A stretch of 64,000 bases of DNA from Cyanobacteriota bacterium erpe_2018_sw_21hr_WHONDRS-SW48-000092_B_bin.40 (lineage in GTDB: Bacteria > Cyanobacteriota > Vampirovibrionia > Obscuribacterales > Obscuribacteraceae): the NCBI GenBank assembly GCA_030917395.1, contig JAUPUU010000180.1, forward strand, positions 1 through 64,000. The letters are read 5' to 3'. Under the pieces are notes generated by a model. The model was not told the origin of the DNA and made no database searches. It was given only the letters and a program-made list of their open reading frames with translations. This document shows, piece after piece, positions 171 through 54,311 of this stretch. Each line of letters starts with the position of its first letter. Position 1 is the stretch's first letter. The position numbers and the translations under genes were made by a program.

Positions 171-749
171 ATGCCCCTGCTTCCATCGAAGAATAACACC
201 AAAGAATTTGACCAGTCTGCAGTTGCAGTGCTCACCGATCTTAAAAAAGGTGGCAATGACAAGCGCAACGAGTTCATATGGGTGCACCAAGAACGCATCT
301 ACGCAGTGGCCTTACTAGGCACTGGCGACCATGAACATGCTGCCGAAGTTACTATTTCATCTTTCAACAATGCCTTCAGCGCTCTCAATCAAGGATTACC
401 GAAAAATCCTGATATGTCTATCTGGGACTGGCTTTCTCAATATGTTGTTGAAGCCATGGGTGAATATCACAGCCAGAATAGCGGACCGCCAGACGAAGAA
501 GATACAGACCCAGCTCAAGATGGTTCGGCCAGTATGGATTGGGAAACAACTGTATTGCTAGGCGTTCAAAGAGTAAAACGCTGTATCGGTTCTTTACCAC
601 AAGAACTAAAGCGAATTTTCCTCTTGCGACACAGTCTTGATCTTAACTACGAACAAATTTCCATCGTAACCAATCAAAGAGTAGAGAAATGCATGGCCTT
701 GCTCTACAGAGCCAGGGTGCAAGTAGTCAAATGTCTAGGTCGCGGGTGA
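171..749 (+). CDS. Divergent sigma-70 family (ECF-like) sigma factor
   Basis: This is a 192-residue protein if it starts at ATG 171, or 198 residues from the in-frame GTG at 153, which lies inside a leader inverted repeat. The C-terminal half resembles sigma region 4. It has a helix beginning GVQRVKRCIGSLPQ, then LKRIFLLRHSLDLNYEQIS, then a recognition-helix-like stretch with LLYRARVQVVK. The N-terminal half could be region 2, but the usual acidic and aromatic core-binding and melting residues are weakly conserved, so promoter recognition may be unusual. The gene ends 33 bases before the start of a giant protein whose N-terminus looks like an anti-sigma domain. The pair is therefore read as a sigma/regulator operon. 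Function as a sigma factor is inferred from the fold pattern only. Confidence 0.65.
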   Translation: MPLLPSKNNTKEFDQSAVAVLTDLKKGGNDKRNEFIWVHQERIYAVALLGTGDHEHAAEVTISSFNNAFSALNQGLPKNPDMSIWDWLSQYVVEAMGEYHSQNSGPPDEEDTDPAQDGSASMDWETTVLLGVQRVKRCIGSLPQELKRIFLLRHSLDLNYEQISIVTNQRVEKCMALLYRARVQVVKCLGRG

Positions 750-782
750 TGCAGAATATGGCAAGTAGAAGGTTGATATCTC

Positions 783-3700
783 ATGTCTGACGCCGAGTAC
801 AGATTACTGATTCAAAGATCGTTCGATGAAGAACTCTCTAAACAAGAGCATCGCGCCTTCGTCAATCACCTAGAAACTTCTGACTCGGGTCAAAAGTTTC
901 ATCACCAACTCGATCAAATGATTCAAGCCGCTCAGGACACTCCACTTCCTGACGATTTGCGTCCCCAGAACCCGGAAGCACTCGCGAGAACGATCATGGA
1001 ACAACTCCCTCAGAAAAAAGGTTCTATCTTCGCCATGTTCACCAACTTGTTTGGTGGCGGGCAACCTAAGGCCAAAGCCAGTCAGAGCAAAGATTCTGGC
1101 AGAGGCAAGGCAGATAAGACCGATAAAAAAGGCGCCATCAATAGAGGCGGCAAGAAAGGCAAGGGCAAAGACCCAGTAGAAGACGACGAAGTTGAATCAC
1201 CAAGCGATCGACGCAAACCCGGCGTCAAATTCGGCCGCAAAGACAAAGAAGCTGACATTTCAGCAGATGAACGCGAAGATCAGATGGGAACGTTCTCTCG
1301 TCTTAAATCAATTAGCTCCCGCGCCAATGATGCCGCTGAAAATCGCGACAATCAATCGACCACCAGATCTCTTGGCGAGAAATTTGGTATGCCAGGCGGT
1401 GCTACTTCCAATCCACTAGACGAAGCGCCTCTTACGCTGGCTGAATCGATCAAACGAAAAGTATCTGAATCACAGAAACTCTCACCTTTAGAGATGGATT
1501 CTGATGATTACTCCAGTCAAGAAATGCCTGCAACCGGAGGAGACTTCGGTCGCCCACAGAGCCAAGGACAAGAAGTTGCTGATGCCGACTCAAGCTGGAG
1601 TGCACCAACACCAATTGGCCTACCTATAAAGCAGAAGATGGGCGCACCAGTCACGGCCCAAGGGCTAGACTGGAGTGGGGCTCCCGCTGGCAGTCCAGCA
1701 AGTTCATTCGAGCAACATCCTGGTTCAGCAATTGGCTTGGCACCACCGGGGCAAAAGCCCACCACCGGTTCCAACCCTGCCGCTCCCTCGGGCGGCGGTC
1801 TAGATTGGAGTTCGGGAACCGCCTCAACAAGTAATGCAAGCAGCACTCAAAGTGGCTGGGGTAGTAATGCGCCAGCTATGGAGCCCACCGCAGTACCAGC
1901 CAAGACTGACAGCGGCTGGGGTTCTAGTTGGGGAAGTGAAAACCAAGCGGGCGTGGCACCTCAAAATACTGGCGTTCCCTTGAAGTCATCTGATTCGTGG
2001 GCCGTGCCAGGTTCTGAAGCTGCTGACGCCTGGGGTCAACCAGCAGCTCAAGCGGCTCCAAGCCCAGCGGCTCAAGCTGCTGTATCTCAACCTGCACCAG
2101 TCCCACCACAGAATGGACAAGATCCATGGGGAAGTGCAGCTGTAGCCGGTTCTGGCGCAGCCAATCCGTCAGATGGTGGCGGCTGGTCTAGCCCAGGCAG
2201 CAACGCCGCTTCGAGCCCCGCAAGCGCCACCGAAGGCGATGGCGGCAATTGGGGACAGGCTGCTAGTTGGGGCGCTCCCAACACACCAGTACCTAATAAT
2301 ACATCTAACTCCCTGCCGTCAGCGGCCGCACCGACAGCTCAAGCTCCTGCAGCTAATGACCCTTGGGCGCAGCCAGCGCAACCAGCAGCAGCAGCAGCAA
2401 CCGACCCGTGGGCATCTGCGGCTGCACCAGCTCCTACTAACAATGATCCTTGGGCCGCCGCTTCTCCAGCTCCAGCTCCAGCTCCTACAACTAATGATCC
2501 TTGGGCCGCGGCTTCTTCTGCTCCAGCTCCTACAACCAATGATCCTTGGGCCGCTGCTTCTCCTGCTCCAGCTCCTACAACCAATGATCCTTGGGCCGCT
2601 GCTTCTCCGGCTCCAGCTCCTACAACCAATGATCCTTGGTCAGCCTCGGCAGCTTCGGCAGCTCCTGCTGCCGCTCCAGCAGTCAGTGACCCTTGGGCAG
2701 CCGCCGCTGCAGCCCCTCAGGCTATAGCAGCTCCAGCTACTGACTCAGCTTGGGGAGCGCCAGCTCAATCAGAAAACAAAGAACAGGCTCCAGCCGCTAT
2801 GGGCTGGGGGCAATCAGCTGCGCCTCAATCATCCACAGAACCAGCCGCCTGGGGTGCACCCGCACCTTCTCCTGCTCCTGCGCCAGCAGCTCCAGCCATC
2901 GGTGCCAATCAAAGTTGGTCACCAGAAGGTGAGCAGATGGAAACAGGGGTATGGAAATCGTTCACACCTAAAACAGGACCACTGGCACCAGCAGCCCAAG
3001 CTCCTGCGCCGGCAGCATCTACAGCAGACCGCTGGGATTCACCAATTCAAGACCGACCTAAAGAAGCAGCACCGGCAGCAGCAGCTCCAGTAGGGGCATC
3101 GGCTGACCGCTGGGATGTGCCAATTCAAGCACGCAGTGCTAGCGCTGAGTTACCGGCTCCCCAAGCGGTATCGGCGGTTGGTTCTTCAGGACTACCAGTC
3201 AATCAAATCGTTGAGAAAATGGGTTCTGTCCTCGGTGGCGGTGCCGCAACGGATAGCCGCTGGGATGTACCAATTCAGGCACGCAGTGCGGCCGAGATGC
3301 CAGCAGCCGCACCACCAGCAGCACCAGCGGTGAATTCATCTGGTATTCCAGTCAATCAAATTGTAGAGAAAATGGGCACAGTACTTGGTGGCCCTGCTGC
3401 CGGTGCAGACAGCCGCTGGGATCTTCCAATTCAAGAACGCAGCAAAGAGACTAAAGCTGAACCTGAGCAAGCACCAGCTCCAGTTCAGAGCTTTGCTCAG
3501 CCAGCCGCGCCAGCCGCTTGGGGTGAGACTCCAGCCGCTAGTAGCACCTGGGGAACTCATCCAGAACAACCCACCACAACACCATGGGGTGCGGTCAGTG
3601 CAGCTCCAGAGCCAGCTCAAAGCCCTGCCGCTGCTCCATCAGGATGGGGCTCCGAGCCGGCAGCACCAGCAGCATGGGCAGCGCCAGCTGCAGCTCCAGT

Positions 3701-5342
3701 TGCGCCTGCAGGTACACCATCACCGACTGCTTGGGGCACCGAAGCACCTACAGCGGCAGCTCCAGCCAATAGTTGGGATGCCGCTGCCGCCGCGTCACCG
3801 GGTTGGGGCAGCGAACCACAACCGCAAGCAGCTCCAGCCAGCGCTCCCGATCAATGGGGCCAACCGCCAGCCTGGGGTCAGTCTCAAGTGCCACAAGCTG
3901 CTGCACCGACCTTCGCACCAGCTCCAGTCGCTGCTCCAGAAGTAACTGACAAAACAGCTCCTAGCGGCATGTTCAACCTGGGCGATCAAGATATCGACAA
4001 GATCTTTGGCGATAACCTGGGCGTTAGCGAACCAGTTGGCCGCACCCTGGTCAATAATGGTGCCGAACCGCAAGCTTCGGCTAGCGCACCGGCTCAAGCA
4101 CCGAATCTAGTTCCGGCTGCCCAGCCAGCACAAACCAACAACTTCGCCCCACCTCAAGCGGCACCAAGCATCACAGCCCCAGCGGCAGCCGCTGATCCAA
4201 ATGCCGCAAAAAACGGTCTCTTCCAATTAACCGATAACGACCTCGATAAGCTCTTCAGTAGCAATCTTGGCGTGGATGAACCTTCCACACAAGTTGGTGT
4301 GCAAGCAACCATCTCGCCTGTTCAATCTGCAGCGGCAGCGCCGAACAATTTTGCCCCACCAGCGGCTGCCAACAGCGCTCCTGGTTGGAATACCGGCGCC
4401 GAACAGCAAGCACCTTCAGGTTGGGGAGTATCGGCACCAACTCCATCCCCAGTTGCAGCAGCAGGTGGAGCTAATGGTTGGTCGGGCGCTCCACAAGCAC
4501 CAAGTGGATGGGGAATGGAACAGCCACCTGCTAGTGGACCTAGTGGTTGGTCCAATGCACCAGCCGCTGCTCCGGCAGAAGCTCAGCCCAGTGGTTGGGG
4601 TTCACCTACTCCTCCCACACCACCGGCATGGAATCAACCGGCAGCTCAAGCACCTGCAGCAAACGTTGCTACTAGCCCAGAGCCAGCTAAAGGTGGTCTA
4701 TTCTCAGTTGACGACAATGTCATGAACCGGATATTCTCCGACAATCTTGGCATTCCAGAAGACGCCACTTCTAAGCCTGATGCCTATGCTATTCCAGATC
4801 AAGGCGGTGAGCAGGTCTCCCCACCTAAGATTGCTGGTATCGGCCGTCTCGATGCTTCCGGTGATCAAAACCAAGACGCTGGTTCTGGCAGAATTGCTTC
4901 AATTGGCAAATTCTTACTCGATCAAAAAGATCTAGATAAGATTGGCAAATTGACCAGTTCAGACTTGAACGAAGGCAAGATGAGAATTCTCACTCTAGAG
5001 GCATCTCAAGATTTGCAGTCGTTACTGAGTCAGATAGGAACTCAGCAGGGCGTGATTGGATCAGTGATCGTGGGCCATGATGGTCTATTGATTGCTAACA
5101 CCATGCCTGGAGACATGGACGCAGAATCAGTTGGAGTTTGGGCACTCGGTGTCTATATGAACACTGAACATGTCACCAAGAAAATGGGTCATGACCGCGT
5201 GCACCAGGTTGTTTCAAGAACACCCCGGGGCTATGTTGTTATTGCCGATTTTGGTGGAGGCCTTCTAGTCACAGTCACTGATGGCAGAGACACTGACTCG
5301 TTGATTCCACTGATGAGAACAATTACACAGCTAGTCAACTAA
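783..5342 (+). CDS. Giant anti-sigma-like, Pro/Ala/Trp-rich protein with C-terminal roadblock/LC7 domain
   Basis: This protein has 1519 residues. Residues 1-80 resemble the zf-HC2/ZAS anti-sigma fold, with a pattern of FDEELSKQEHRAFVNHLE. The zinc ligands of the usual HxxxCxxC motif are replaced: His is kept, but both Cys positions are Ser and Gly. Residues about 100-230 are basic and charged. A long low-complexity region rich in Pro, Ala, Gln, Trp and Gly follows to about residue 1300. It holds DPWAAA repeats, four WDxPIQxR motifs and two PVNQIVEKMG motifs. Four copies of a DLDKIF-type motif lie near residues 1064, 1146, 1306 and 1376. Residues about 1400-1519 form a roadblock/LC7 (MglB-like) domain, with a GVIGSVIVGHDGLLIAN core. 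No signal peptide or membrane segment is visible, so it is probably cytoplasmic. It lies just downstream of a sigma-like gene and may link sigma control to a small-GTPase or roadblock switch; that link is inference. Confidence 0.75.
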   Translation: MSDAEYRLLIQRSFDEELSKQEHRAFVNHLETSDSGQKFHHQLDQMIQAAQDTPLPDDLRPQNPEALARTIMEQLPQKKGSIFAMFTNLFGGGQPKAKASQSKDSGRGKADKTDKKGAINRGGKKGKGKDPVEDDEVESPSDRRKPGVKFGRKDKEADISADEREDQMGTFSRLKSISSRANDAAENRDNQSTTRSLGEKFGMPGGATSNPLDEAPLTLAESIKRKVSESQKLSPLEMDSDDYSSQEMPATGGDFGRPQSQGQEVADADSSWSAPTPIGLPIKQKMGAPVTAQGLDWSGAPAGSPASSFEQHPGSAIGLAPPGQKPTTGSNPAAPSGGGLDWSSGTASTSNASSTQSGWGSNAPAMEPTAVPAKTDSGWGSSWGSENQAGVAPQNTGVPLKSSDSWAVPGSEAADAWGQPAAQAAPSPAAQAAVSQPAPVPPQNGQDPWGSAAVAGSGAANPSDGGGWSSPGSNAASSPASATEGDGGNWGQAASWGAPNTPVPNNTSNSLPSAAAPTAQAPAANDPWAQPAQPAAAAATDPWASAAAPAPTNNDPWAAASPAPAPAPTTNDPWAAASSAPAPTTNDPWAAASPAPAPTTNDPWAAASPAPAPTTNDPWSASAASAAPAAAPAVSDPWAAAAAAPQAIAAPATDSAWGAPAQSENKEQAPAAMGWGQSAAPQSSTEPAAWGAPAPSPAPAPAAPAIGANQSWSPEGEQMETGVWKSFTPKTGPLAPAAQAPAPAASTADRWDSPIQDRPKEAAPAAAAPVGASADRWDVPIQARSASAELPAPQAVSAVGSSGLPVNQIVEKMGSVLGGGAATDSRWDVPIQARSAAEMPAAAPPAAPAVNSSGIPVNQIVEKMGTVLGGPAAGADSRWDLPIQERSKETKAEPEQAPAPVQSFAQPAAPAAWGETPAASSTWGTHPEQPTTTPWGAVSAAPEPAQSPAAAPSGWGSEPAAPAAWAAPAAAPVAPAGTPSPTAWGTEAPTAAAPANSWDAAAAASPGWGSEPQPQAAPASAPDQWGQPPAWGQSQVPQAAAPTFAPAPVAAPEVTDKTAPSGMFNLGDQDIDKIFGDNLGVSEPVGRTLVNNGAEPQASASAPAQAPNLVPAAQPAQTNNFAPPQAAPSITAPAAAADPNAAKNGLFQLTDNDLDKLFSSNLGVDEPSTQVGVQATISPVQSAAAAPNNFAPPAAANSAPGWNTGAEQQAPSGWGVSAPTPSPVAAAGGANGWSGAPQAPSGWGMEQPPASGPSGWSNAPAAAPAEAQPSGWGSPTPPTPPAWNQPAAQAPAANVATSPEPAKGGLFSVDDNVMNRIFSDNLGIPEDATSKPDAYAIPDQGGEQVSPPKIAGIGRLDASGDQNQDAGSGRIASIGKFLLDQKDLDKIGKLTSSDLNEGKMRILTLEASQDLQSLLSQIGTQQGVIGSVIVGHDGLLIANTMPGDMDAESVGVWALGVYMNTEHVTKKMGHDRVHQVVSRTPRGYVVIADFGGGLLVTVTDGRDTDSLIPLMRTITQLVN
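2442..2640 (+). repeat. Tandem 45-bp coding repeat (DPWAAA units)
   Basis: Near-identical units begin at 2442, 2493, 2538, 2583 and 2628. The spacing is 51, 45, 45 and 45 bases. Each unit encodes about NDPWAAASPAPAPTT, and the first carries one extra Ala-Pro dipeptide. Units differ mainly at third positions. The array keeps the reading frame, so copy number can change without breaking the gene. It lies in the disordered linker of the roadblock protein. Confidence 0.85.
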
Positions 5343-5363: not shown

Positions 5364-6968
5364 TTACTTGCCCTGTGATAGAACGTAGTTACTCAAAGTT
5401 CTCGCACCAAATCCGGTGCCGCCTTTGCATAGCTCATCGCGTTCTCGGTCAATCCAACCCACCCCAGCAATATCGAGGTGAGCCCAAGGCTTACCTTCGG
5501 TGAATTCTTTGAGGAACATAGCAGCGGAGCTAGAGCCAGCTTCACCGCGGGAGCCAGCATTTTTCAAATCAGCAATATCACTCTTCAGGCCCTCTTTGTA
5601 TTCTACAAACAGAGGAAGCTGCCAGAACTGTTCGCCGCAGATTTTGCCGCTAGCTATGACATTGTCAACCAGGGTCTGATCACTGCCCATGATACCAGCC
5701 GCTACTCTACCTAGGGCAGAAACCACGGCCCCAGTCAATGTGGCAATATCGATCAGTTCGTCAACGCCTTCTCGAATGGCATAAGTAATAGCGTCAGCCA
5801 AAATTAAGCGCCCTTCAGCGTCAGTGTTGTTGACTTCAATTGTCTTGCCGTTCATTGATTTCAACACATCACCAGGATGCAGGGCATTAGAGCCAGGCAT
5901 ATTCTCAGTTGATGCCACCACGGCCAAGACCGACACATTGGGCTTGAGTTGACCAATGACCTGCATGGCAGCAAGCACTGCCGCTGCTCCAGCCATGTCG
6001 TACTTCATATGTTCCATACCTACAGCGGTCTTGAGAGAGAGGCCGCCAGAATCAAAGGTGATGCCTTTACCAATCAGACCAATAGTTTTCTTAGCCTTAG
6101 GCGCAGTATATTTGAGCACAATTAAGCGCAACGGTTCTTTCGCACCCTTGGCCACACCTAAAAGCGCTCCCATGCCCAGCTTTTCTACTTGAGCCGGTTG
6201 AAGTACTTTGACAGAAAGACTGTGGGCCGAAGCAATACGCTGAGCCTCAGCGGCTAATCTAGTTGGTGTCATATACGATGGTGGCTCAGCAATCAAGGTG
6301 CGAGCCATGTTAGTCGCTGAAGCTATAGCAATAGCTTTCTCACTGACTTTCTTCACCGTGGCAAGGTCAAGGCCAGAGGCCTGGACGTGGAGGGTCAGAT
6401 TCAAGCTGTCAGCTTTTTGATTAGCAGCTTTATCGTCATCTTTAACAGACTTATACTTCAAGAAACTAAAGGAAGACAAAATCCAAGCCTCAACCACAGC
6501 CTCAAGACCAGCAGCCGCACTGAAAGAACTTGCCCCTTTCTTAGCAGACTTACCTTTAGCACTTGAGCTGACACGTAAACAAAGCGAAACGTTAGCAGCC
6601 TTGGTCTTACTAACAGCGGCGGAAGCACTAGATATAGAGGCCATGCGCTTAGCACCTTGTACACCAAGCTTGCGAAAAGCTGCAGCGCCAACTTCACTGG
6701 CGCTGCCTAAACCAACCAACAGCAAGCGCTTAAATGGAGCCTTATCATAGGTTGGCAAAATCACTTGCTGTCCTGCTTTACCAGCAAAACCTTCTTCTGC
6801 AGCCATTTTAGACAAAGAGTCTAGAAGATGCTTGTCGACATTTTTGCCAGAAGCATTGCTCAGTTTTGACTCAGCCAGGACATCAGCAATGTTCTCTTGG
6901 GCGAAAACACCTATGATAAGAAGGTCTGCCTTGATGGAGCCAATATCAGTTGCCAATTTTACATGCAT
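5364..6968 (-). CDS. pepA: Leucyl aminopeptidase (M17, cytosol aminopeptidase)
   Basis: This 534-residue two-metal exopeptidase removes N-terminal residues from peptides in the cytoplasm. The family signature NTDAEGRLIL is present around residue 375. The metal-binding Lys/Asp stretch is seen in GLIGKGITFDSGGLSLK near residue 300, followed by MKYDMAGAAAV. The N-terminal macro-like domain is longer and rich in Lys, Ala and Ser (SSAKGKSAKKGASSFSAA, about residues 135-150), which is an oddity compared with typical PepA proteins. The start at 6968 has AGGA upstream at a workable distance. The gene is convergent with the roadblock protein gene, with a 21-base gap, and lies just downstream of the DUF4388 gene on the same strand. 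Confidence 0.93.
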   Translation of the reverse strand: MHVKLATDIGSIKADLLIIGVFAQENIADVLAESKLSNASGKNVDKHLLDSLSKMAAEEGFAGKAGQQVILPTYDKAPFKRLLLVGLGSASEVGAAAFRKLGVQGAKRMASISSASAAVSKTKAANVSLCLRVSSSAKGKSAKKGASSFSAAAGLEAVVEAWILSSFSFLKYKSVKDDDKAANQKADSLNLTLHVQASGLDLATVKKVSEKAIAIASATNMARTLIAEPPSYMTPTRLAAEAQRIASAHSLSVKVLQPAQVEKLGMGALLGVAKGAKEPLRLIVLKYTAPKAKKTIGLIGKGITFDSGGLSLKTAVGMEHMKYDMAGAAAVLAAMQVIGQLKPNVSVLAVVASTENMPGSNALHPGDVLKSMNGKTIEVNNTDAEGRLILADAITYAIREGVDELIDIATLTGAVVSALGRVAAGIMGSDQTLVDNVIASGKICGEQFWQLPLFVEYKEGLKSDIADLKNAGSRGEAGSSSAAMFLKEFTEGKPWAHLDIAGVGWIDRERDELCKGGTGFGARTLSNYVLSQGK

Positions 6969-6988: not shown

Positions 6989-8914
6989 TTATGTACTAGT
7001 ACTAATCACACGAGAAACAATTTCGTCGACAACTTTGGCGTCAATCTGCCTGCGACAATAGGCTAGATAAGCTTCCATCCAGCGCCTGAGCTCGAGCAAC
7101 ACGGCCGAAACTGGCACCCCTGCTCTCTTCATCTGCGACAAGTTTACCGAGATACGCCCTTCATGATCGATATGAAAGCGTGCTTTCGCCGGTGAATCAC
7201 CATGCACGTAATGGAGAGAAGAGTGGAGCAAAGCTTTGTTGTCTTCCCGCCCGATGAGCTCTTGCATCTCAGAGCCGATCTTTTGCAAAACGGTAAGCGG
7301 CCGGAAGAGACTAGCCTGCTGGATGTTAGCTAGTTTCAGTTCAACTAGCATAAACAGTGCTTTGACAATTTTATGAGTAGGCCAATTATCAAAGGCCTTA
7401 ATTACTTCATCTAAAGTAGATAGACCGTCAATCTGAGCTGCTAGATCAGCAATCATAAAGCGTTCATCATTACTCAGTACAGTCTCATCCATAAGGCGCA
7501 GAGGGGTCCCTGCTAACTGCTGCCAGAGCATCTCAAAATTCCAGACACGTTCTAAAATCGAATCGCGCCCCTGAGGCAAACTAGCAAAGATTTGACTGAC
7601 TTGATCTTGACACAGGGCCGAATCTAACAAAAGTCGCTCTAGTGTCTGAGTGATGCGACAGGTATCATCAAACTCTTGCGAAACACCTTTGTCTCTAAAG
7701 ACAAAAATACCTTCGCCCCAGGTTGTAAGAAACTCAACCATGGCATGATAGCCCAAAAGTTTATTCATCTTGGCATGAGTTGGCTTGCCATCAACAAAGG
7801 CGACAATCAATATCTTGTCGCGGTCTTCAACTGTGAGCAAACCCGTTTTCTTTGCCGTGGCCAAAGACTGCAGCAAACCGGCAGTGTCAATGGCACCAAG
7901 GCTACCAATCATCGAATCACGCATTGTTTCAATATTAACAGTGCGCGAAACACCTGGCAGCTCATCTTCAGTACGGCGGTGATAGCCACCATAAAGATAT
8001 TGATCATCGAGCAAAACTTCGAGTTCACGAGTATTTATATAGCCAGCCCGCACAGCCAAGAGCCCCAAGAAAGTGCGCTGCGATTTTCCCCAGCCTTCTT
8101 CCTGTTGTCGCTCTAAGAGCTCTCTCAGCTGAGCTTCAGTGACAATGCCGCAAGCTACCATGTAGCGGCCGAGACGGAAAGGTTTGCGGTTGTGATAGCA
8201 ATTAGAAAGAAACTGAATGCGGGAGAATACAGGAAAAATCAAGCGAGCAGCCTCAAGCTCTTGCAAAATTCGCAAGGCTTCATCAGAAGGCAGCTGGTGA
8301 TGCGACTCGACATTGCGCACAATCGACTCTACTGAGGCATAGTCTTCAACCATTTGCATAACCCAATTCTGGGGAGCAGGCAAAGTAAAGTCACCTTTGA
8401 TCTGCTTTCCATCGCTGGTCAATACAGGAATAGAGGTCGACAAAATATGATTAGCAAGAGTACTACCGCCGCCCTTCAGTCTTCTTCTATCGATACCACT
8501 GACAGTGGCACAAGCGTAGTCAGCCAGCAGGGGATAGCGGGTAAATATTCCAAAAGGACTATCGTAGATATTGAACGTCAAGCCACCGGCAGGGTCATCC
8601 TTGGTCAAAGTGATGGCGCCATCGCCCTTAACAAAAAGCAGCACCCCTTGCGGGTTAAGCAATTTTTTTGCATACATGGAAAATTTCACTAAGGCATCAA
8701 GCGGCAGCGAAAAGCCAGTCTGCATCAAATCAATTATCAAGCCATCAAGACTTTTACCCTGTTCAACAAGTTTATCGAGTTGGCTATAGAGATTTTCACG
8801 GTAAGAGAAAGTAAGAAACGACAGGGATGAATTGAGATAGCTTTCAGTAGACTCCCTTTCATTGCTGGCGCCAGGAGAGACCCGAGGTAAATCACTAGGT
8901 GAAAAGTCAGCCAT
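6989..8914 (-). CDS. DUF4388 (PATAN) protein with MshEN-like motif
   Basis: This is a 641-residue cytoplasmic signalling protein from the ATG at 8914. Longer in-frame starts would overlap the upstream gene. From about residue 246 it carries RLGRYMVACGIVTEAQLREL and then LERQ, which fits the RLGxxL...G...L...L..Q pattern of MshEN domains; these bind cyclic di-GMP in some type II secretion and type IV pilus ATPases. From about residue 335 it carries a DUF4388/PATAN domain (GSLGAIDTAGLLQSL, then KTGLLTVEDRDKILIVAFVDGKPTHA). The C-terminal 200 residues are helical and unassigned. PATAN proteins are common in cyanobacterial and myxobacterial signalling. The stop of the upstream secreted-protein gene lies 4 bases before this start, so the two are probably co-transcribed. 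Confidence 0.75.
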   Translation of the reverse strand: MADFSPSDLPRVSPGASNERESTESYLNSSLSFLTFSYRENLYSQLDKLVEQGKSLDGLIIDLMQTGFSLPLDALVKFSMYAKKLLNPQGVLLFVKGDGAITLTKDDPAGGLTFNIYDSPFGIFTRYPLLADYACATVSGIDRRRLKGGGSTLANHILSTSIPVLTSDGKQIKGDFTLPAPQNWVMQMVEDYASVESIVRNVESHHQLPSDEALRILQELEAARLIFPVFSRIQFLSNCYHNRKPFRLGRYMVACGIVTEAQLRELLERQQEEGWGKSQRTFLGLLAVRAGYINTRELEVLLDDQYLYGGYHRRTEDELPGVSRTVNIETMRDSMIGSLGAIDTAGLLQSLATAKKTGLLTVEDRDKILIVAFVDGKPTHAKMNKLLGYHAMVEFLTTWGEGIFVFRDKGVSQEFDDTCRITQTLERLLLDSALCQDQVSQIFASLPQGRDSILERVWNFEMLWQQLAGTPLRLMDETVLSNDERFMIADLAAQIDGLSTLDEVIKAFDNWPTHKIVKALFMLVELKLANIQQASLFRPLTVLQKIGSEMQELIGREDNKALLHSSLHYVHGDSPAKARFHIDHEGRISVNLSQMKRAGVPVSAVLLELRRWMEAYLAYCRRQIDAKVVDEIVSRVISTST

Positions 8915-8918
8915 TTCC

Positions 8919-10259
8919 TCAATTCTTTGGCTTGGCATTAGCAGGGTTAGCAGCAGCGGCAGCAGCTGGATTGCCACCAGGCAGAACCATCGTGCCGCTC
9001 AAGCGCTGAGCAATAGCATCTGGAGGAGCAATGAATAAAGCTCTAATGGCCAGTTGGCCCTTCAAGCGACCAGGTTGCAGAATTCTTCCCACTTCAATAA
9101 TCAAGTCATCTTTGCTTGAGGTAACCAGGCGATAGCGGCTGGAACCAGCGGCATTAGACATTGGCACCAGGCGCATAGGCGGGCTAACTCGACCGAACAA
9201 ACCAAGATACTTGGGTATTGAAACGAGCTTGCTATCAACCAACCATGACTTTGCCAACTCTGGCTTAGCACCAGCAACAGCTTGAGCGAAGCTCAAAGCC
9301 ACCGAAAATGGAGCATCATCTGGCATATGACCTGAAAGTGTATATTTGCCAGCAACAAACTTGAGCACTACTTTATAGCCAGCAGAACTAGCAGCAGCGA
9401 CCGGCTTAGACACTGTGTCTTTAACAACCCCAGCCGGTTTTTCTTCCTCAACTTTCTCTTTGCGTACAACAGGAGGTTGAATCGTCAAGACAATATCGTT
9501 GCCAGAAAAGGTCGCTTTACCAGTGACATTCTGAGTAAAGAAAGCTGGCAGTGAGCTAAACAACTCTGTTGCCTCGGGCATTCCTTCAACCAGCTGAAAA
9601 CCCTTAAACCACAAAGTGCCGCTGTTACGGTCAGCACCAATAAGTACCAGCGACTTAGGTCCAGCGGCAGCGTGGACTACAGGATGCACAGGAGGATGCA
9701 CAGCAGCATGAACAGGCGGGTGCGGATGATGAGCGCCCTTACCAGCAACTGGCTTCAGCGCTGCGGCCGCGGGGGCAGTAGCCAAACCGACAATTCTCGC
9801 CTCACGAAATGCCACAGCCTGAGGTAATGGCACCGCAGTAGTGCGAGCAGGTGTCTGAAAAATTACAGCATGGCTTTCTACAATGCGGGGAAAACTCCAA
9901 ATGCGGAAACTGCCAATACCAGTCTCGCTTACTTTCACTTTGAATTCGGAAAGTGACGGATTAGCAGCAATTATTTGAGCTGGCTCAGCACTGACAAACT
10001 GAGGCAGAGCAAGCAAGTCTCGCAAGTAGGTGGCATAGCGGGCCCAACTGAGATCATCGGCAGCGGCGCGGTAATCACTGGCTAATTGAGCAAGATTAGC
10101 TGCCGCTAGAGAAACGGTAGGGGTTGTTGCTGCGGTTTTCTCTCCAGCTTCGGGCAAAGAATGTTCTAGACCGTGGGCACAAGGTGCAGCAAGCTGACAG
10201 ACCAGAGCTAGAGGTAGCGCAGACCCCGATAAAAATGAAAGCGACAGGTTTTTTCTCAT
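8919..10259 (-). CDS. Secreted or periplasmic protein of unknown function
   Basis: This is a 446-residue protein from ATG 10259; an earlier in-frame start at 10277 would add six residues. The N-terminus MRKNLSLSFLSGSALPLALV, followed by a small-residue segment, reads as a signal peptide. Around residues 180-205 there is a His/Pro-rich stretch (HHPHPPVHAAVHPPVHPVVH) that could bind metal or act as a flexible linker. The later part alternates beta-strand-like segments and is rich in Val, Ala and Lys. No known domain is recognised. The gene overlaps or abuts the DUF4388 gene downstream (4-base gap), and they probably share a transcript. The upstream 250 bases are shared with the divergent LysM gene. 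Confidence 0.7.
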   Translation of the reverse strand: MRKNLSLSFLSGSALPLALVCQLAAPCAHGLEHSLPEAGEKTAATTPTVSLAAANLAQLASDYRAAADDLSWARYATYLRDLLALPQFVSAEPAQIIAANPSLSEFKVKVSETGIGSFRIWSFPRIVESHAVIFQTPARTTAVPLPQAVAFREARIVGLATAPAAAALKPVAGKGAHHPHPPVHAAVHPPVHPVVHAAAGPKSLVLIGADRNSGTLWFKGFQLVEGMPEATELFSSLPAFFTQNVTGKATFSGNDIVLTIQPPVVRKEKVEEEKPAGVVKDTVSKPVAAASSAGYKVVLKFVAGKYTLSGHMPDDAPFSVALSFAQAVAGAKPELAKSWLVDSKLVSIPKYLGLFGRVSPPMRLVPMSNAAGSSRYRLVTSSKDDLIIEVGRILQPGRLKGQLAIRALFIAPPDAIAQRLSGTMVLPGGNPAAAAAANPANAKPKN

Positions 10260-19633: not shown

Positions 19634-20185
19634 CTATTTAGAATCTACGGGGAAAATGTCACGCACTCTACGCATCAAATTCTGAATTTTATCGGGCATA
19701 ACTTCAGTCTGGGCGCCCGGATTCAGTTGCTGCTTACGACTGATGATCAAGACACGCATCATTTCTTCCAACTGCTTCTGCTGCTTCTCATCAAGCACTT
19801 TGCGCTTGTTTAGATAGTTTTGCATAGCAGCATTACTAAGCTGTTCTCGGCGTCTAGCAATTGACTGCTGCAGAGCCATAACTTGAATGGGATCAGCATT
19901 GTGGTCGGAAAGAAGCTTTTGCAGTTTGGACTGCTCATCGCGTATCTGTGGGCTCAATTCGTTGAAGTCTTTGTACCACTGCTGCTCTAAGCTTTGAATT
20001 TGACTGCTTTGTTGCGGCGAGAGATTGAGCTTAGTCCAGTCAACATTACAAGAAGTTGGCTGGGCATCTTGAGCCATGCTCTCTGGTGGGAAGGATACTT
20101 CTAAAGCGCAGCCAGCTGCCAACGATAAGGCGGCAGACATAAGCCCGTTTGCTGCACTCTTTGCTCCGTGCGAATTACTCTTCAT
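19634..20185 (-). CDS. Spy/CpxP/ZraP-like periplasmic stress protein
   Basis: This is a 183-residue protein. Residues 1-39 include a hydrophobic signal segment ending near SMAQ, so it is probably periplasmic. The mature part is helical and resembles the LTxxQ family: NLSPQQSSQIQSLEQQW near residue 53 and LDEKQQKQLEEMM near residue 131, separated by a Gln/Arg-rich hairpin. Family members are chaperones or metal and envelope-stress sensors. The gene overlaps the upstream anti-sigma gene by 11 bases and shares its operon with the ECF sigma factor. A role as the periplasmic signal input or stress effector is therefore likely, as in CnrX-type systems; that is inference. GAGGCGG precedes the ATG. 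Confidence 0.7.
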   Translation of the reverse strand: MKSNSHGAKSAANGLMSAALSLAAGCALEVSFPPESMAQDAQPTSCNVDWTKLNLSPQQSSQIQSLEQQWYKDFNELSPQIRDEQSKLQKLLSDHNADPIQVMALQQSIARRREQLSNAAMQNYLNKRKVLDEKQQKQLEEMMRVLIISRKQQLNPGAQTEVMPDKIQNLMRRVRDIFPVDSK

Positions 20186-21089
20186 AAACTACCGCCTCAG
20201 CTTTATCTGCTGGTTGCAACAACGATGAATCAATCAAATAACCCTCGGCAGAAACTTGACGGACATTTGATTGTTCAGGACTGTTGAGCCAGAAAGCTCC
20301 CAATCCGAAAACTAATACAAAAACAGCGGCTACGGCTGCCAGTGCATAAACACGTCGATCAATTACACCCTTAACCTTGCTAGTAGTAGTAGCAGTCTGG
20401 GTCTTGGGAGTGAACGGAATAACTTGTAGCTTGCTCTTAATACCAGGCCAGAGATCGAAGTCATCTGGAATAGTTGGTTTATAAGAATCACGAATAATAT
20501 CGCCAACATTTGTTAGTTTGCCAAACTCAACCTGGCAATTAGAACAATCGGTCAGGTGCTTGGTTATCTCGCGGTGACGCAAGGTGACAACTTCTTGGTC
20601 TAAGTAGGCAGAAAGCTCATTGTCAATCAAGGCGCAATCGGCAGTAAGTCTTTCTTTGATAGACGACCAGAGATTGACTTCGACATTCTGCGGCAGCTCT
20701 AACCCCTTAGCCAAGAGACGGTTAGTCTGATTTAAAGCGGTGAACTTAGCCAGACAATCCGAGCAATCTTTTAAGTGCTGATTGACCCCTTCTTGGGCCG
20801 GCGAAGTTAGCTCACCATCTAAATAAGCAGACAGATCATCTACTATCACATCGCAAACTGACGGCATATCAAGGGCGAGCTTTGACCAAATATCAGGGGT
20901 TTCATCCTCAGAGGCAAAAGCCTTGCCCAGTAATTTGCTCACGGTCTTCAAAGACTCGAACTGGGCTGCGCAATCGTGGCAAGCCTCAAGATGCGATTCT
21001 ATTTCACTTTTAAAGCTAGGGGCCACCTGATTGTCAAGCAGGGCCGAAAGCTCATCCTTATATTTATCGCAAGCAGAGTCAACCATCAC
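20175..21089 (-). CDS. Membrane anti-sigma factor with three tandem zinc-binding (zf-HC2) modules
   Basis: This is a 304-residue protein. Three repeats of about 70 residues each carry a Cys, an SAYLD/SALLD helix, an HxxxCxxC motif (HLEACHDC, HLKDCSDC, HLTDCSNC) and a closing Trp motif (DIWSKL, NLWSSI, DLWPGI). Each repeat matches the ZAS/zf-HC2 anti-sigma fold that clamps an ECF sigma factor. A membrane segment lies near residues 248-270 (YALAAVAAVFVLVFGLGAFW), followed by a short outer tail of about 35 residues. Most anti-sigma factors have one such module, so three is unusual. The start is GTG 21089 or ATG 21086. It overlaps the sigma gene by 11 bases, which suggests translational coupling. 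Its target is almost certainly the upstream sigma factor. Confidence 0.9.
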   Translation of the reverse strand: MMVDSACDKYKDELSALLDNQVAPSFKSEIESHLEACHDCAAQFESLKTVSKLLGKAFASEDETPDIWSKLALDMPSVCDVIVDDLSAYLDGELTSPAQEGVNQHLKDCSDCLAKFTALNQTNRLLAKGLELPQNVEVNLWSSIKERLTADCALIDNELSAYLDQEVVTLRHREITKHLTDCSNCQVEFGKLTNVGDIIRDSYKPTIPDDFDLWPGIKSKLQVIPFTPKTQTATTTSKVKGVIDRRVYALAAVAAVFVLVFGLGAFWLNSPEQSNVRQVSAEGYLIDSSLLQPADKAEAVVYEE

Positions 21090-21714
21090 TAGAGACCTCA
21101 GTTACCGACTGTGACTGTTCTATGTATGGCTTAAGCAACTCTTGCAGCTTGGTCCGGGCACGGGCAATCCTAGATTTCACCGTTCCCATCTCTGTCTGTG
21201 TTATCACTGCAATTTCATCGTAGCTTAGGCCCTCCACTTCTCTCAAGACGATGGCTGTACGAAACTGTTCCGGCAAACGCAACATTGCTTGACGTATTAC
21301 TTCTGAGATTTCTTTATTGAGAATTTTTTCGTCCGGCAAGATACCGGTGTCCGGAATATCGCGGGTGGAACCGTCCGATTCACCGTCTTCTCCACCATGG
21401 GAATCGTCCATAGAAACAGTAGGCAGGCGACGGGGCCGCTTGCGCAATTCGTCATAAAAAAGGTTGGTGACAATTTGAGTGAGCCAGCCCCGAAAAGAGG
21501 CCGGATTTCTTAAATTGTTAATAGAGCGCCAAACCCGAATGAAAACTTCCTGCGCCAGGTCAGAGGTGTCTTCCCAATCGGGGGCCAATTGATAGAGCAA
21601 GGAATAGACAGTGCGCTGGTGCCGTTTCACAAGCTCTTCAAAAGCCTGAGGCTCACGCTTCTGACAGGCTAAAACTAAATCACGGTCACTCTTCTGAGAA
21701 TATGCGGTTGGCAT
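21079..21714 (-). CDS. ECF-family RNA polymerase sigma factor
   Basis: This is a 211-residue protein. Region 2 is well conserved, with the QEVFIRVWRSINNL helix and FRGWLTQIVTNLFYDELRKR. Region 4 follows (LPEQFRTAIVLREVEGLSYD, then a GTVKSRIARARTKL recognition helix). A Gly/Asp/Ser-rich linker near residues 103-125 joins them. This is the SigW/RpoE-type layout. It is the first gene of an operon with an anti-sigma factor and a Spy-like protein, which suggests an envelope- or metal-stress response. The short space before metK, which is divergent, must hold both promoters. I could not assign a convincing autoregulated promoter. Confidence 0.93.
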   Translation of the reverse strand: MPTAYSQKSDRDLVLACQKREPQAFEELVKRHQRTVYSLLYQLAPDWEDTSDLAQEVFIRVWRSINNLRNPASFRGWLTQIVTNLFYDELRKRPRRLPTVSMDDSHGGEDGESDGSTRDIPDTGILPDEKILNKEISEVIRQAMLRLPEQFRTAIVLREVEGLSYDEIAVITQTEMGTVKSRIARARTKLQELLKPYIEQSQSVTEVSSDG

Positions 21715-26140: not shown

Positions 26141-27748
26141 TTACTTGATATCGCGATAGAGCGCAATTGGCATAGCGGCCCGCAATGCTGCGGCTTTAGC
26201 CGCTTCAGCGGCAGCTAAGAGCACGCCTAGATCAAGACAATCTTCGGGAATACAGGCAACACCAAAAGCCAGCGATAAATTAGAGCTATCAACACCAGGA
26301 GCAAGCGAAGCACTCCAGATTGCCTTAGCTACCCTTTGAGCAAAAGTGTTGGCACCAGTTGTTTTGGTATTAGGCAAGAGCATGGCGTAATCGTATTGGT
26401 CATAATGCGCCAACAAATCGATATGTCGCTTTAATCGACTGACTCGTCGCACTACTTCAGCTAGAGCTGGAGTATCAAGAGGCTGTCTTTCAAAGTTCGG
26501 AGGGCCACTAATGACGCGCATTTCCATCACCATAACCGAGAGTGGACTACCCGAGCGATAGCCCCGGAAGTATTCTTGCTCTAAGAAATAGAGGAAAGCT
26601 TCGTAAGTGAACATGCCGGTTTCGGGACGTCTCAAATTCATCATGACGCTGTGAATCTTCGACTTATCAATTATCTTCGGCGCAATAGTCGGTTTTTCTT
26701 CTTTGACACCAATGTAATCGTTGGTGAAAGTAATCAAATCGGCATTGAGCAAGAGAGTAATTAATGGCACCCACTGACTGCGAGAGAGCCTGGTCTTATC
26801 AACCAAATCTTTGATTGAGGTCTTATCATCAATTACCGAATAAAGCGCTTTGAGCATATGAGCGGCCACGGTCGGATCGTGAGCAGCTAAGTTATCGAAG
26901 TCATATCCAGCCACACTCTCATGCTTGCGAATCAATACAGAGTCAGTCTGCAGGCCAACGTTGCGCAAGAAAGTCACTTTGTCGACTAAATGCACACCAA
27001 GAATTACCAGGCTCTCGATCGGCTGCGCCACATTGCGCTGAGACACCCTTACCCTTGGCTCAAACTTGTATTTTCCTTCGCGCCAGGTCAATAAATCAAG
27101 AATTCCCTCATCGCCAAGAATGCCGCCAACATCGGCATGGAGCGGTTCGCCATCAACGAAGAAAATCTTGCTGTGCAGACTGCCTTGATCTACATCAAGA
27201 CGACCTGTCATCTTAGCCAATAAAATAGACTGCAATAATCGTGAAATCTCAACGAGCGAGAGATCACCAGTAGGCGGTAGCGTTGAACGCGACCAGGCAT
27301 TGTCTTGCGTACCAACCGATGGATTGCTCTTTGGATCAGTAGCATCCATTGTGTTGGCTGTTTGCATGAACAAGGTGTCTCGCCGTTTAGAAGAATCTCT
27401 AAAAGACTCATTCACCGCCAGGACACCATCAGCTTGAATACTTTGATGAACTTCGCCGCAAGAAGAGATGATCAAGTTGTAGACGAGTAAAACATCACAG
27501 CTCTTGTAGTCCCAGACAATACGCATGTTCTTGCCGACAAAGAGCTTCCATTCAGTGTCGCCACCGCGCCAGGGGCAGTGAATATTGAGAGTGAAATCAA
27601 TGGCTCTATCAGGAGTGGACCAGGTAATTTCAACTTGCCGCCCTCTATGTTCCATCGCCACCGACAGATAGTGGTGGATTTCAGACAATCCCGGCGCGGC
27701 CGGCAACTTCTGAAGTGTTTTAGGGATCGGACCAGATCTCCGCAGCAT
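26141..27748 (-). CDS. DUF4388 (PATAN) protein with degenerate GGDEF domain
   Basis: This is a 535-residue protein from ATG 27748, which has AAAGG about 8 bases upstream; the ATG at 27757 would sit right on that site. Residues about 158-245 form a DUF4388/PATAN domain (DLSLVEISRLLQSILLAKMT, then GRLDVDQGSLHSKIFFVDGE). Residues about 370-530 resemble a diguanylate cyclase fold. The GGDEF signature is replaced by HYDQYDYAMLLPNT, so synthesis of cyclic di-GMP is unlikely; it may be a receptor or scaffold. The C-terminal SLAFGVACIPED and AAEAAKAAALRA match the end of GGDEF domains. A second PATAN protein is at 6989-8914. Confidence 0.75.
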   Translation of the reverse strand: MLRRSGPIPKTLQKLPAAPGLSEIHHYLSVAMEHRGRQVEITWSTPDRAIDFTLNIHCPWRGGDTEWKLFVGKNMRIVWDYKSCDVLLVYNLIISSCGEVHQSIQADGVLAVNESFRDSSKRRDTLFMQTANTMDATDPKSNPSVGTQDNAWSRSTLPPTGDLSLVEISRLLQSILLAKMTGRLDVDQGSLHSKIFFVDGEPLHADVGGILGDEGILDLLTWREGKYKFEPRVRVSQRNVAQPIESLVILGVHLVDKVTFLRNVGLQTDSVLIRKHESVAGYDFDNLAAHDPTVAAHMLKALYSVIDDKTSIKDLVDKTRLSRSQWVPLITLLLNADLITFTNDYIGVKEEKPTIAPKIIDKSKIHSVMMNLRRPETGMFTYEAFLYFLEQEYFRGYRSGSPLSVMVMEMRVISGPPNFERQPLDTPALAEVVRRVSRLKRHIDLLAHYDQYDYAMLLPNTKTTGANTFAQRVAKAIWSASLAPGVDSSNLSLAFGVACIPEDCLDLGVLLAAAEAAKAAALRAAMPIALYRDIK

Positions 27749-27879
27749 AATTACCATCCTTTTCCAGCCTGTATCTACAGCAATAGGTCTTGCAACCTAA
27801 CTCAATACAGTTAACGCCTCACGTCAGCTTATATGCCCAGGCTCAGATAAAGCTAACCACTCCTAATGGTCGCATTTCA

Positions 27880-53045: not shown

Positions 53046-54311
53046 ATGAGCGAGCGCAGAGTAGTTATTACTGGCCTGGGGATGGTAACTCCAGTCGGAA
53101 TCGGCAAGGACGAATGCTGGGAAGCTCTTCTAGCCGGCAAATCTGGCGTTGCAGCGCTGACTTTGTTCGATCCAAGTACAGTAGCCCTGGAAATCAAAAT
53201 TGCCGCAGAAGTAAAAGACTTCAATATCCAAGATTTTTTTCCAGATAAGCGCAAAGTCGGCTCGATGCTCAAAGAGATGGACCGTGTCACCTTGTTCGCC
53301 ATGGCTGCGGCCAAATTAGCACTTGAAGACGCTAACTTCGATGTTAGAGCAAATAACCCGGAGCGTGTTGCTACTTTCTTGGGCACTGGCGTCGGTGGTC
53401 TGATAACTACCACTGCAGACCATATCAAGCTACTTGAAGGGGGCGCAAGAAAGCTCGGCTTACGTTCAGTCATCAGACTTATGCCCAATGCACCATCCGG
53501 ACAAGTTGCCATCGAATATGGTGCCAAGGGACGAGCCAAAGCAGATTCAACAGCATGTGCTAGCGGCCTAGACTCTCTATTTGATGCTTTCATGTACATC
53601 AAGGACAATCGTGCCGACGCTGTAATTTCTGGTGGCTGCGAAGCCGCTATCAACGCTTTCAGCATGGCTTCTTTTGGCAATATGATGGCGCTTTCTAAAC
53701 GTAATGATGATCCAGAAGGAGCTAGTCGGCCATTTTCCAAAGACCGCGATGGTTTTGTCATCGGGGAAGGCGCGATTGTACTGATTCTAGAAGAGCTAGA
53801 ACACGCAGTTAAGCGCAATGCCAGAATCTACGCTGAGATAGTTGGCGGCGGTGCCACCTGCGACGCCTACCATATCGTTGCTCCTCATGAGACCGGCGAA
53901 GGGGCCGCGGCCGCTATGCGTGAAGCCATGCGCGATGCCAAGATAGAGCCAACTGACATCGATTATATTAATGCACACGGTACCTCAACTCCACTCAATG
54001 ATGAGCGTGAGACCATGGCAATAAAACAAGTGTTGGGTGAACATGCCTACAAGATTCCAATTTCCAGCACTAAATCAATGGTTGGCCATTTACTCGGCGG
54101 CGCCGGGGCGATAGGCACAGCAGTGGCAGCGCTTAGTATTTACAATCAAAAAGTACATCCAACCATCAACCTGGATACGCCAGATCCAATGTGCGATCTC
54201 GACTATGTGCCAAATAAATGTCGTGACGCCAAAATAAAATATGCCATGGTTGAAGCCCTCGGATTCGGCGGCCATAACACAGTGCTTATTTTAAAGGCCT
54301 ACACAGCCTGA
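53046..54311 (+). CDS. fabF: 3-oxoacyl-ACP synthase II
   Basis: This is a 421-residue condensing enzyme of fatty-acid synthesis. The N-terminus RRVVITGLGMVTPVGIGKDE is typical. The active-site Cys lies in DSTACASGLDSLFDAFMYIK near residue 175. The two His are in INAHGTSTPLND near 310 and KSMVGHLLGGAGAIG near 347. GFGGHNTVLIL closes the fold. The gene is not in a fab operon here. It stands alone between the metallopeptidase gene and the convergent giant protein gene, which it overlaps by 13 bases. Confidence 0.95.
   Translation: MSERRVVITGLGMVTPVGIGKDECWEALLAGKSGVAALTLFDPSTVALEIKIAAEVKDFNIQDFFPDKRKVGSMLKEMDRVTLFAMAAAKLALEDANFDVRANNPERVATFLGTGVGGLITTTADHIKLLEGGARKLGLRSVIRLMPNAPSGQVAIEYGAKGRAKADSTACASGLDSLFDAFMYIKDNRADAVISGGCEAAINAFSMASFGNMMALSKRNDDPEGASRPFSKDRDGFVIGEGAIVLILEELEHAVKRNARIYAEIVGGGATCDAYHIVAPHETGEGAAAAMREAMRDAKIEPTDIDYINAHGTSTPLNDERETMAIKQVLGEHAYKIPISSTKSMVGHLLGGAGAIGTAVAALSIYNQKVHPTINLDTPDPMCDLDYVPNKCRDAKIKYAMVEALGFGGHNTVLILKAYTA

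Follow-up and report, generated by a model that had tools for sequence, protein, structure and literature searches.

A degenerate sigma factor gene followed by a gene that joins an anti-sigma domain to a roadblock domain was found near the beginning of the window, the 64,000-nucleotide stretch analyzed here, which is the start of contig JAUPUU010000180.1 (C233) of a metagenome-assembled genome (MAG) of the Obscuribacterales (Melainabacteria; GCA_030917395.1; 6.07 Mb in 560 contigs, 88.6% complete). The first gene encodes a protein resembling extracytoplasmic function (ECF) sigma factors, and its partner begins with a class I anti-sigma (ZAS/ASDI) domain and ends with a roadblock/LC7 domain of the MglB type. 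The best-supported core of our interpretation is that the two genes constitute a sigma/anti-sigma-type pair in which the anti-sigma is tethered to a roadblock domain. As the gene order and the domain ends recur in 43 loci, the arrangement is not a product of chance.

Conservation of the locus in the Obscuribacterales

The sigma-like open reading frame (ORF) extends from an ATG at 171 to a stop at 747-749, with a GTG 18 bases upstream also open, and a gap of 33 bases (750-782) separates it from the 1519-residue ORF, in agreement with a sequence-only reading of this DNA that had described a divergent sigma-like gene followed by a protein of this size. That reading had also suggested examining gene order in related genomes, and the ZAS gene lies 3' of the sigma gene in all 43 loci compared across the order, at a spacing of 14-120 bases. 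The roadblock domain ends the downstream ORF in 32 of these loci, and in 32 of the 33 uninterrupted ORFs; among the remaining 11 loci, the locus or contig stops first in 10, and in L122 the ORF closes at 298 residues.

Orthologues of the sigma-like protein were detected in 50 of 53 Obscuribacterales genomes (E below 1e-50; G001, G013 and G055 are without one) and in none of 291 other sampled genomes of the phylum (E<=1e-25). A search with the roadblock end gave matches in 27 of 40 relatives, namely all 27 Obscuribacterales and none of the 13 other members of the class. Most relatives bearing the locus are MAGs named as Candidatus Obscuribacter, Obscuribacterales or Melainabacteria, together with a few titled as other bacteria.

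The surroundings are conserved as well, in the order primary-sigma-like gene, MgtE-like transporter, carboxyltransferase, divergent unknown gene, the pair, M17 aminopeptidase and DUF4388 protein, where the first three names are our own reading of the sequences. The genes at the locus look vertically inherited and syntenic. In the genome of the window, the divergent gene and the carboxyltransferase form the end of contig C84; since this contig carries the divergent upstream neighbor, it is probably adjacent to that of the window.

The anti-sigma domain and its zinc ligands

The N-terminus had been read as ZAS-like from its helical pattern, and comparison with orthologues bears this out. Searched alone against zf-HC2, the window protein falls below the cut-off (residues 5-33, E 0.023, 15.3 bits vs 22.2); the assignment becomes firm through the family, as zf-HC2 was matched at E<=0.1 by 16 of 17 aligned orthologous N-termini (best 4.1e-6) and the orthologue profile matches the solved anti-sigma RsiW (1.6e-6), indicative of homology to known ASDI members. 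ZAS family membership and a conserved sigma-like neighborhood, the two points on which the sequence-only reading had staked its case, were both found. It is exceedingly improbable that the likeness is accidental and that the N-terminus is simply disordered in an otherwise ordinary roadblock protein: the sub-threshold score of the window protein alone speaks for it, and it is contradicted by the 16 zf-HC2 matches, the RsiW match and the zinc-ligand pattern of most orthologues.

As had been noted from the sequence, the window protein keeps the conserved His (His29) and carries Ser33 and Gly36 in place of two zinc cysteines, so that Hx3Cx2C is replaced by H-x3-S-x2-G; in addition, the third cysteine, at position 3, is Asp. 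The ligand set Cys3-His29-Cys33-Cys36 (CHCC) is kept in 33 of 43 orthologues, and in 15 of 24 complete CHCC proteins the three ligand cysteines are the sole cysteines over 744-1733 residues. The pattern Asp-His-Ser-Gly (DHSG) occurs in nine orthologues, which form the window's clade, a single clade of the sigma tree (support 98/83). The complete proteins of this clade (n=7) are devoid of cysteine, including the window protein, which also has no predicted transmembrane segment (maximum 19-residue hydropathy 1.27). Mapped on the sigma tree, the zinc/no-zinc label shows two changes, the second in L096 (DFSC); their number does not fix the direction of change. Loss is favored because CHCC is spread through the rest of the order, and the simplest reading is a canonical CHCC ancestor, from which the ligands were lost once in the clade of the window, with a further, partial loss.

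The zinc-less state is clade-specific and in itself ordinary, since zinc-less class I anti-sigmas are common: about 56% of the class bind zinc and about 44% do not, mixed within groups (PMC7406223). Given this frequency, Hx3Cx2C is not a required feature of the class. Further ZAS-roadblock paralogues (L046, L047, L139-L142, L144-L148 and L152), present in several genomes, have no sigma gene within the fetched stretch; they are mostly zinc-less, with cysteine pairs kept in L046, L145 and L152. No plasmid copies of the ZAS domain were found.

The sigma-like protein, the tether and the roadblock domain

The sigma-like protein retains a two-domain ECF fold that has been eroded at its functional signatures. 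Sigma70_r4_2 was matched above the curated Pfam cut-off (E 2.7e-7), as it was by 17 of 17 orthologues, and the family profile aligns over its full length with AlgU, RpoE and SigW (best E 3.1e-9), the same proteins to which Foldseek relates the AlphaFold2 model. Sigma70_r2 (PF04542) was matched by none of the 17 orthologues, even at E<=1. In the genome of the window, nine further ECF-type proteins have Sigma70_r2 above cut-off and both regions detectable, the matches having been paired by us by contig and position; the sigma-like protein is thus the exception. The window itself holds a canonical ECF (21079-21714; Sigma70_r2 1.3e-20), which belongs to a second, canonical sigma/anti-sigma pair at 20175-21714 on the minus strand, whose anti-sigma has three tandem zf-HC2 matches and a hydrophobic segment near its C-terminus.

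Signature residues of regions 2.2, 2.3-2.4 and 4.2 are lost in 17 of 17 aligned members. The Gln of region 2.2 has become a hydrophobic residue, the basic residues of region 2.3-2.4 have almost all disappeared (net charge -5 to 0, vs +4/+5 in RpoE, AlgU and the second ECF), and the RSR of region 4.2 is gone. What the family preserves instead is clustered between the domains (MDWETT..LG..R.K.C) and at the C-terminus, with M122, W124, E125, T127, L130, G131, R134, K136 and C138 invariant in 17 orthologues. Judging from these alignments, and taking the single residues commonly assigned to core or DNA contact, the protein has lost those with which an ECF sigma grips core RNA polymerase and the -10 element.

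A conserved element close to ATCAKGTAAACTG was observed upstream of most sigma genes (L086-L127), at -57 to -378, and in L095, L101, L121 and L127 a palindrome of the form GCTGACC-N2/3-GGTCAGC precedes it. The window does not contain ATCAKGTAAACTG, as it starts 170 bases before the ATG; the sequence occurs once in the genome, at the end of contig C84. ECF autoregulation through this element was considered and rejected, because a single genomic copy gives no regulon and the element could equally be a housekeeping -10. Positions 1-900 of the window yielded neither a sigma70-type promoter nor a terminator.

A structure prediction of the sigma with the ZAS domain, as the sequence-only reading had proposed, was made from the sigma and the first 95 partner residues, which share a frame and were joined by read-through translation (TAA/TAG=Q, TGA=W) into one artificial chain for AlphaFold2 (15 paired rows). 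The chain was modeled with a mean predicted local distance difference test (pLDDT) of 81 and a predicted template modeling score (pTM) of 0.81. Foldseek matched it best to the sigma chains in the AlgU-MucA and SigW-RsiW complexes, and PhyR chains are weak structural matches only. Whole-chain TM-scores are low (0.25-0.32 by query), and the domain arrangement is accordingly either unlike these complexes or uncertain.

The part between the ZAS and roadblock domains had been taken for a repeat linker of about 1200 residues. A long linker is indeed present; it is rather a low-complexity tether of about 1300 residues, with a clean tandem array only at 2422-2639 (Table 1). Across complete orthologues the tether measures 527-1627 residues, and roughly in its C-terminal half lie one to three copies of a 23-residue motif, GLFxLDDxAIDxIFxxNLGVxE, with three in 21 of 32 complete proteins. 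In its own genome the motif is confined to the fusion protein, a weak match in a kinase-like protein having been discarded as apparently due to chance. Another roadblock protein of the same genome (L051:3424-6510, contig C332; 1029 residues), with hydrophobic N-terminal segments, contains about four copies of LFxxGxDxDIDxIF, related to the tether motif by eye, a similarity that is unscored.

The C-terminal roadblock/LC7 assignment was borne out by PF03259 (Robl_LC7), matched at residues 1414-1498 above the curated cut-off (E 5.6e-8), and by a confident model of the roadblock fold, with block pLDDT mostly 80-91 over about 100 residues. The model matches p14 of MP1-p14, Asgard roadblocks and Myxococcus xanthus MglB (6hjm, E 1.5e-6); when solved chains are compared by sequence profile, Asgard and dynein roadblocks rank highest. 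Two lineages have one or two extra stand-alone roadblock genes 3' of the fusion gene (L103:12488-13310 and L110:12069-12903), which look like tandem duplicates of its C-terminal domain. The genome of the window encodes three MglA-like proteins of about 200 residues, on contigs C175, C476 and C44. Among the 40 relatives, MglA-like proteins of this small type, which we classed by ORF length, are present in 26 of 27 Obscuribacterales vs none of the 13 other class members, in which Arf matches sit in long ORFs; roadblock proteins show the same split.

Table 1. Positions in the window of the pair, its parts and its conserved neighbors
Feature	Position	Strand	Basis
ECF-sigma-like protein, 192 residues	171..749	+	ORF; Sigma70_r4_2 above cut-off, without Sigma70_r2
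Sigma2-like region, degenerate: DxxQE (region 2.2) absent, 2.3-2.4 acidic not basic	213..485	+	Alignment with AlgU, RpoE and the second ECF
Highly conserved inter-domain segment MDWETTVLLGVQRVKRC	534..584	+	17 orthologues
Sigma4-like helix-turn-helix region	570..722	+	PF08281
ZAS-tether-roadblock fusion protein, 1519 residues	783..5342	+	ORF, same strand as sigma-like gene
Class I anti-sigma (ZAS/ASDI) domain, zinc-less	783..1052	+	Orthologue profile, zf-HC2
Ancestral zinc-ligand positions: Asp3 789-791, His29 867-869, Ser33 879-881, Gly36 888-890	789..890	+	
Low-complexity Ala/Pro/Ser/Gly/Gln/Trp tether	1068..4901	+	Composition
45-bp tandem array, unit with NDPWAAAS, 4.7 copies	2422..2639	+	
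Three RWDxPIQxRS and two VNQIVEKMGxVLGG repeats	3108..3443	+	
Conserved tether motif, copy 1, GMFNLGDQDIDKIFGDNLGVSEP	3966..4034	+	
Conserved tether motif, copy 2, GLFQLTDNDLDKLFSSNLGVDEP	4215..4283	+	
Conserved tether motif, copy 3, GLFSVDDNVMNRIFSDNLGIPED	4695..4763	+	
Roadblock/LC7 (MglB-type) domain	5022..5276	+	PF03259; model matches
M17 leucyl aminopeptidase, convergent conserved neighbor (context, outside the module)	5364..6968	-	
DUF4388 protein, second conserved neighbor (context, outside the module)	6989..8977	-	

The DUF4388 gene lies two genes from the pair, and we take DUF4388 to be equivalent to PATAN. PATAN-type genes have been reported near MglB homologues (PMC4316618). Besides this gene, the window encodes a DUF4388 and GGDEF protein (26141-27757, minus strand), as well as a 1707-residue ORF (54299-59422, minus strand) with no Pfam match at E<=0.001.

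A possible partner switch and its alternatives

We propose that the pair may be an Obscuribacterales-wide two-gene signaling module, in which the ZAS domain would clamp the ECF-sigma-like protein from the gene directly upstream and the long, disordered tether would join this clamp to the roadblock domain. The latter most likely forms dimers and binds one of the small MglA-like GTPases of the cell. As a mimic or adaptor, the sigma-like protein would occupy or leave its own ZAS domain and those of the sigma-less paralogues, and this exchange of ZAS partners would act as a switch linked to the complex of roadblock domain and GTPase. ZAS-sigma binding in vivo, the roadblock-GTPase contact and the mimicry are inferred. 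Since the residues contacting core RNA polymerase and the -10 element are lost, the sigma-like protein is most likely a mimic or adaptor, a role in a partner switch to which we give a little under an even chance.

Several observations weigh against this proposal. The sigma-ZAS interface comes from a single artificial chain and is not an independent prediction, docking of the tether motif on the roadblock domain was not seen in the model (pTM 0.49), and the link to a GTPase is one of co-occurrence only, with no MglA or GTPase gene among the conserved neighbors of the pair. Moreover, the sigma4-like region continues to match Sigma70_r4_2 clearly (up to 1e-14 in orthologues), and divergent residues are no proof of inactivity.

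The protein may instead be an active, very divergent ECF sigma that recognizes an unusual promoter. A soluble class I anti-sigma would then hold it, with the roadblock domain as the sensory end, and would release it upon GTPase binding. This alternative has a considerable prospect of being correct, if one that stays short of even: the full-length profile match to AlgU, RpoE and SigW and the above-threshold sigma4-like match are in its favor, and about one third of ECFs lie beside a class I anti-sigma, with extra domains usually C-terminal of the ASDI (PMC7406223). The absence of the core and -10 contact signatures in all 17 aligned orthologues, the absence of a region 2 match in any of them and the failure of the single ATCAKGTAAACTG copy to reveal a regulon argue in the other direction, and a mimic or adaptor tied to MglA-like GTPase signaling is slightly favored over an active sigma. 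The same losses bear on the suggestion of the sequence-only reading that one protein could couple transcription to polarity or GTPase state: the ZAS-roadblock fusion stands, but coupling to transcription cannot be assumed, as the sigma-like protein is without its core RNA polymerase and -10 contacts and the GTPase is connected by co-occurrence only.

A wider version of the mimic or adaptor proposal, which we consider rather doubtful, is that the mimic and the ZAS-roadblock family form a partner-switching network read by MglA-like GTPases, where the GTPase state, sensed by the roadblock and possibly by the tether motifs, would determine which of the ZAS domains become available to real ECF sigmas. 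It is less likely still that the pair is structurally frozen, the sigma-ZAS complex merely capping a roadblock scaffold with no regulatory role of its own. One clade has lost zinc yet kept the pair, and ZAS-roadblock paralogues without an adjoining sigma gene exist, both of which speak for such a cap; however, the order-wide invariant residues of the sigma-like protein and the retention of exactly three ligand cysteines in 33 of 43 orthologues suggest continued functional constraint.

RsiW is membrane-bound. Like SigW-RsiW and other ECF/class I anti-sigma pairs, the pair described here has the anti-sigma gene after the sigma gene and a ZAS profile matching RsiW, and most orthologues keep Hx3Cx2C and the N-terminal Cys; unlike them, its anti-sigma protein has no transmembrane segment, spans 744-1843 residues in complete orthologues, carries a roadblock domain at its end and is paired with a degenerate sigma. 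A precedent for mimicry is provided by PhyR, whose ECF fold is degenerate in its contact regions and which titrates an anti-sigma (PMC8103513). The sigma-like protein resembles PhyR-NepR in being degenerate where an ECF fold contacts promoter and core and in having an anti-sigma partner, whereas it is a stand-alone protein of 192 residues in which Pfam finds only Sigma70_r4_2, has no receiver domain and is paired with ZAS rather than NepR. The roadblock domain shares the fold of M. xanthus MglB, and MglA-like GTPases are present in the same genomes, but it is part of a large ZAS fusion rather than a small protein, with no GTPase gene alongside. Roadblock domains in signaling and in regulator fusions are known from actinobacterial conservons (CvnA-D) and Response_reg-Robl_LC7 proteins (PMC4316618, PMC8510531); in the extracts examined, a roadblock joined to a sigma or anti-sigma domain is not described.

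ECF/ASDI pairs, ASDIs without zinc, fusions of roadblock domains and sigma mimicry have all been described before. No report of an anti-sigma-roadblock fusion was found in the open-access literature, in which Obscuribacter and sigma factors were named together in a name list only. In bacteria, polarity and motility are the main settings in which Ras-like GTPases and the roadblock proteins that regulate them are known, and stress transcription is that of anti-sigma factors; the conserved ZAS-roadblock fusion offers a testable bridge between GTPase switching and gene control. The clade that lost zinc with the pair retained is a natural experiment on the role of zinc in ZAS domains, and the degenerate sigma is a possible further case of sigma mimicry, outside the Alphaproteobacteria. 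If the network reading is true, the Obscuribacterales would have a GTPase-controlled counterpart of PhyR-NepR switching.

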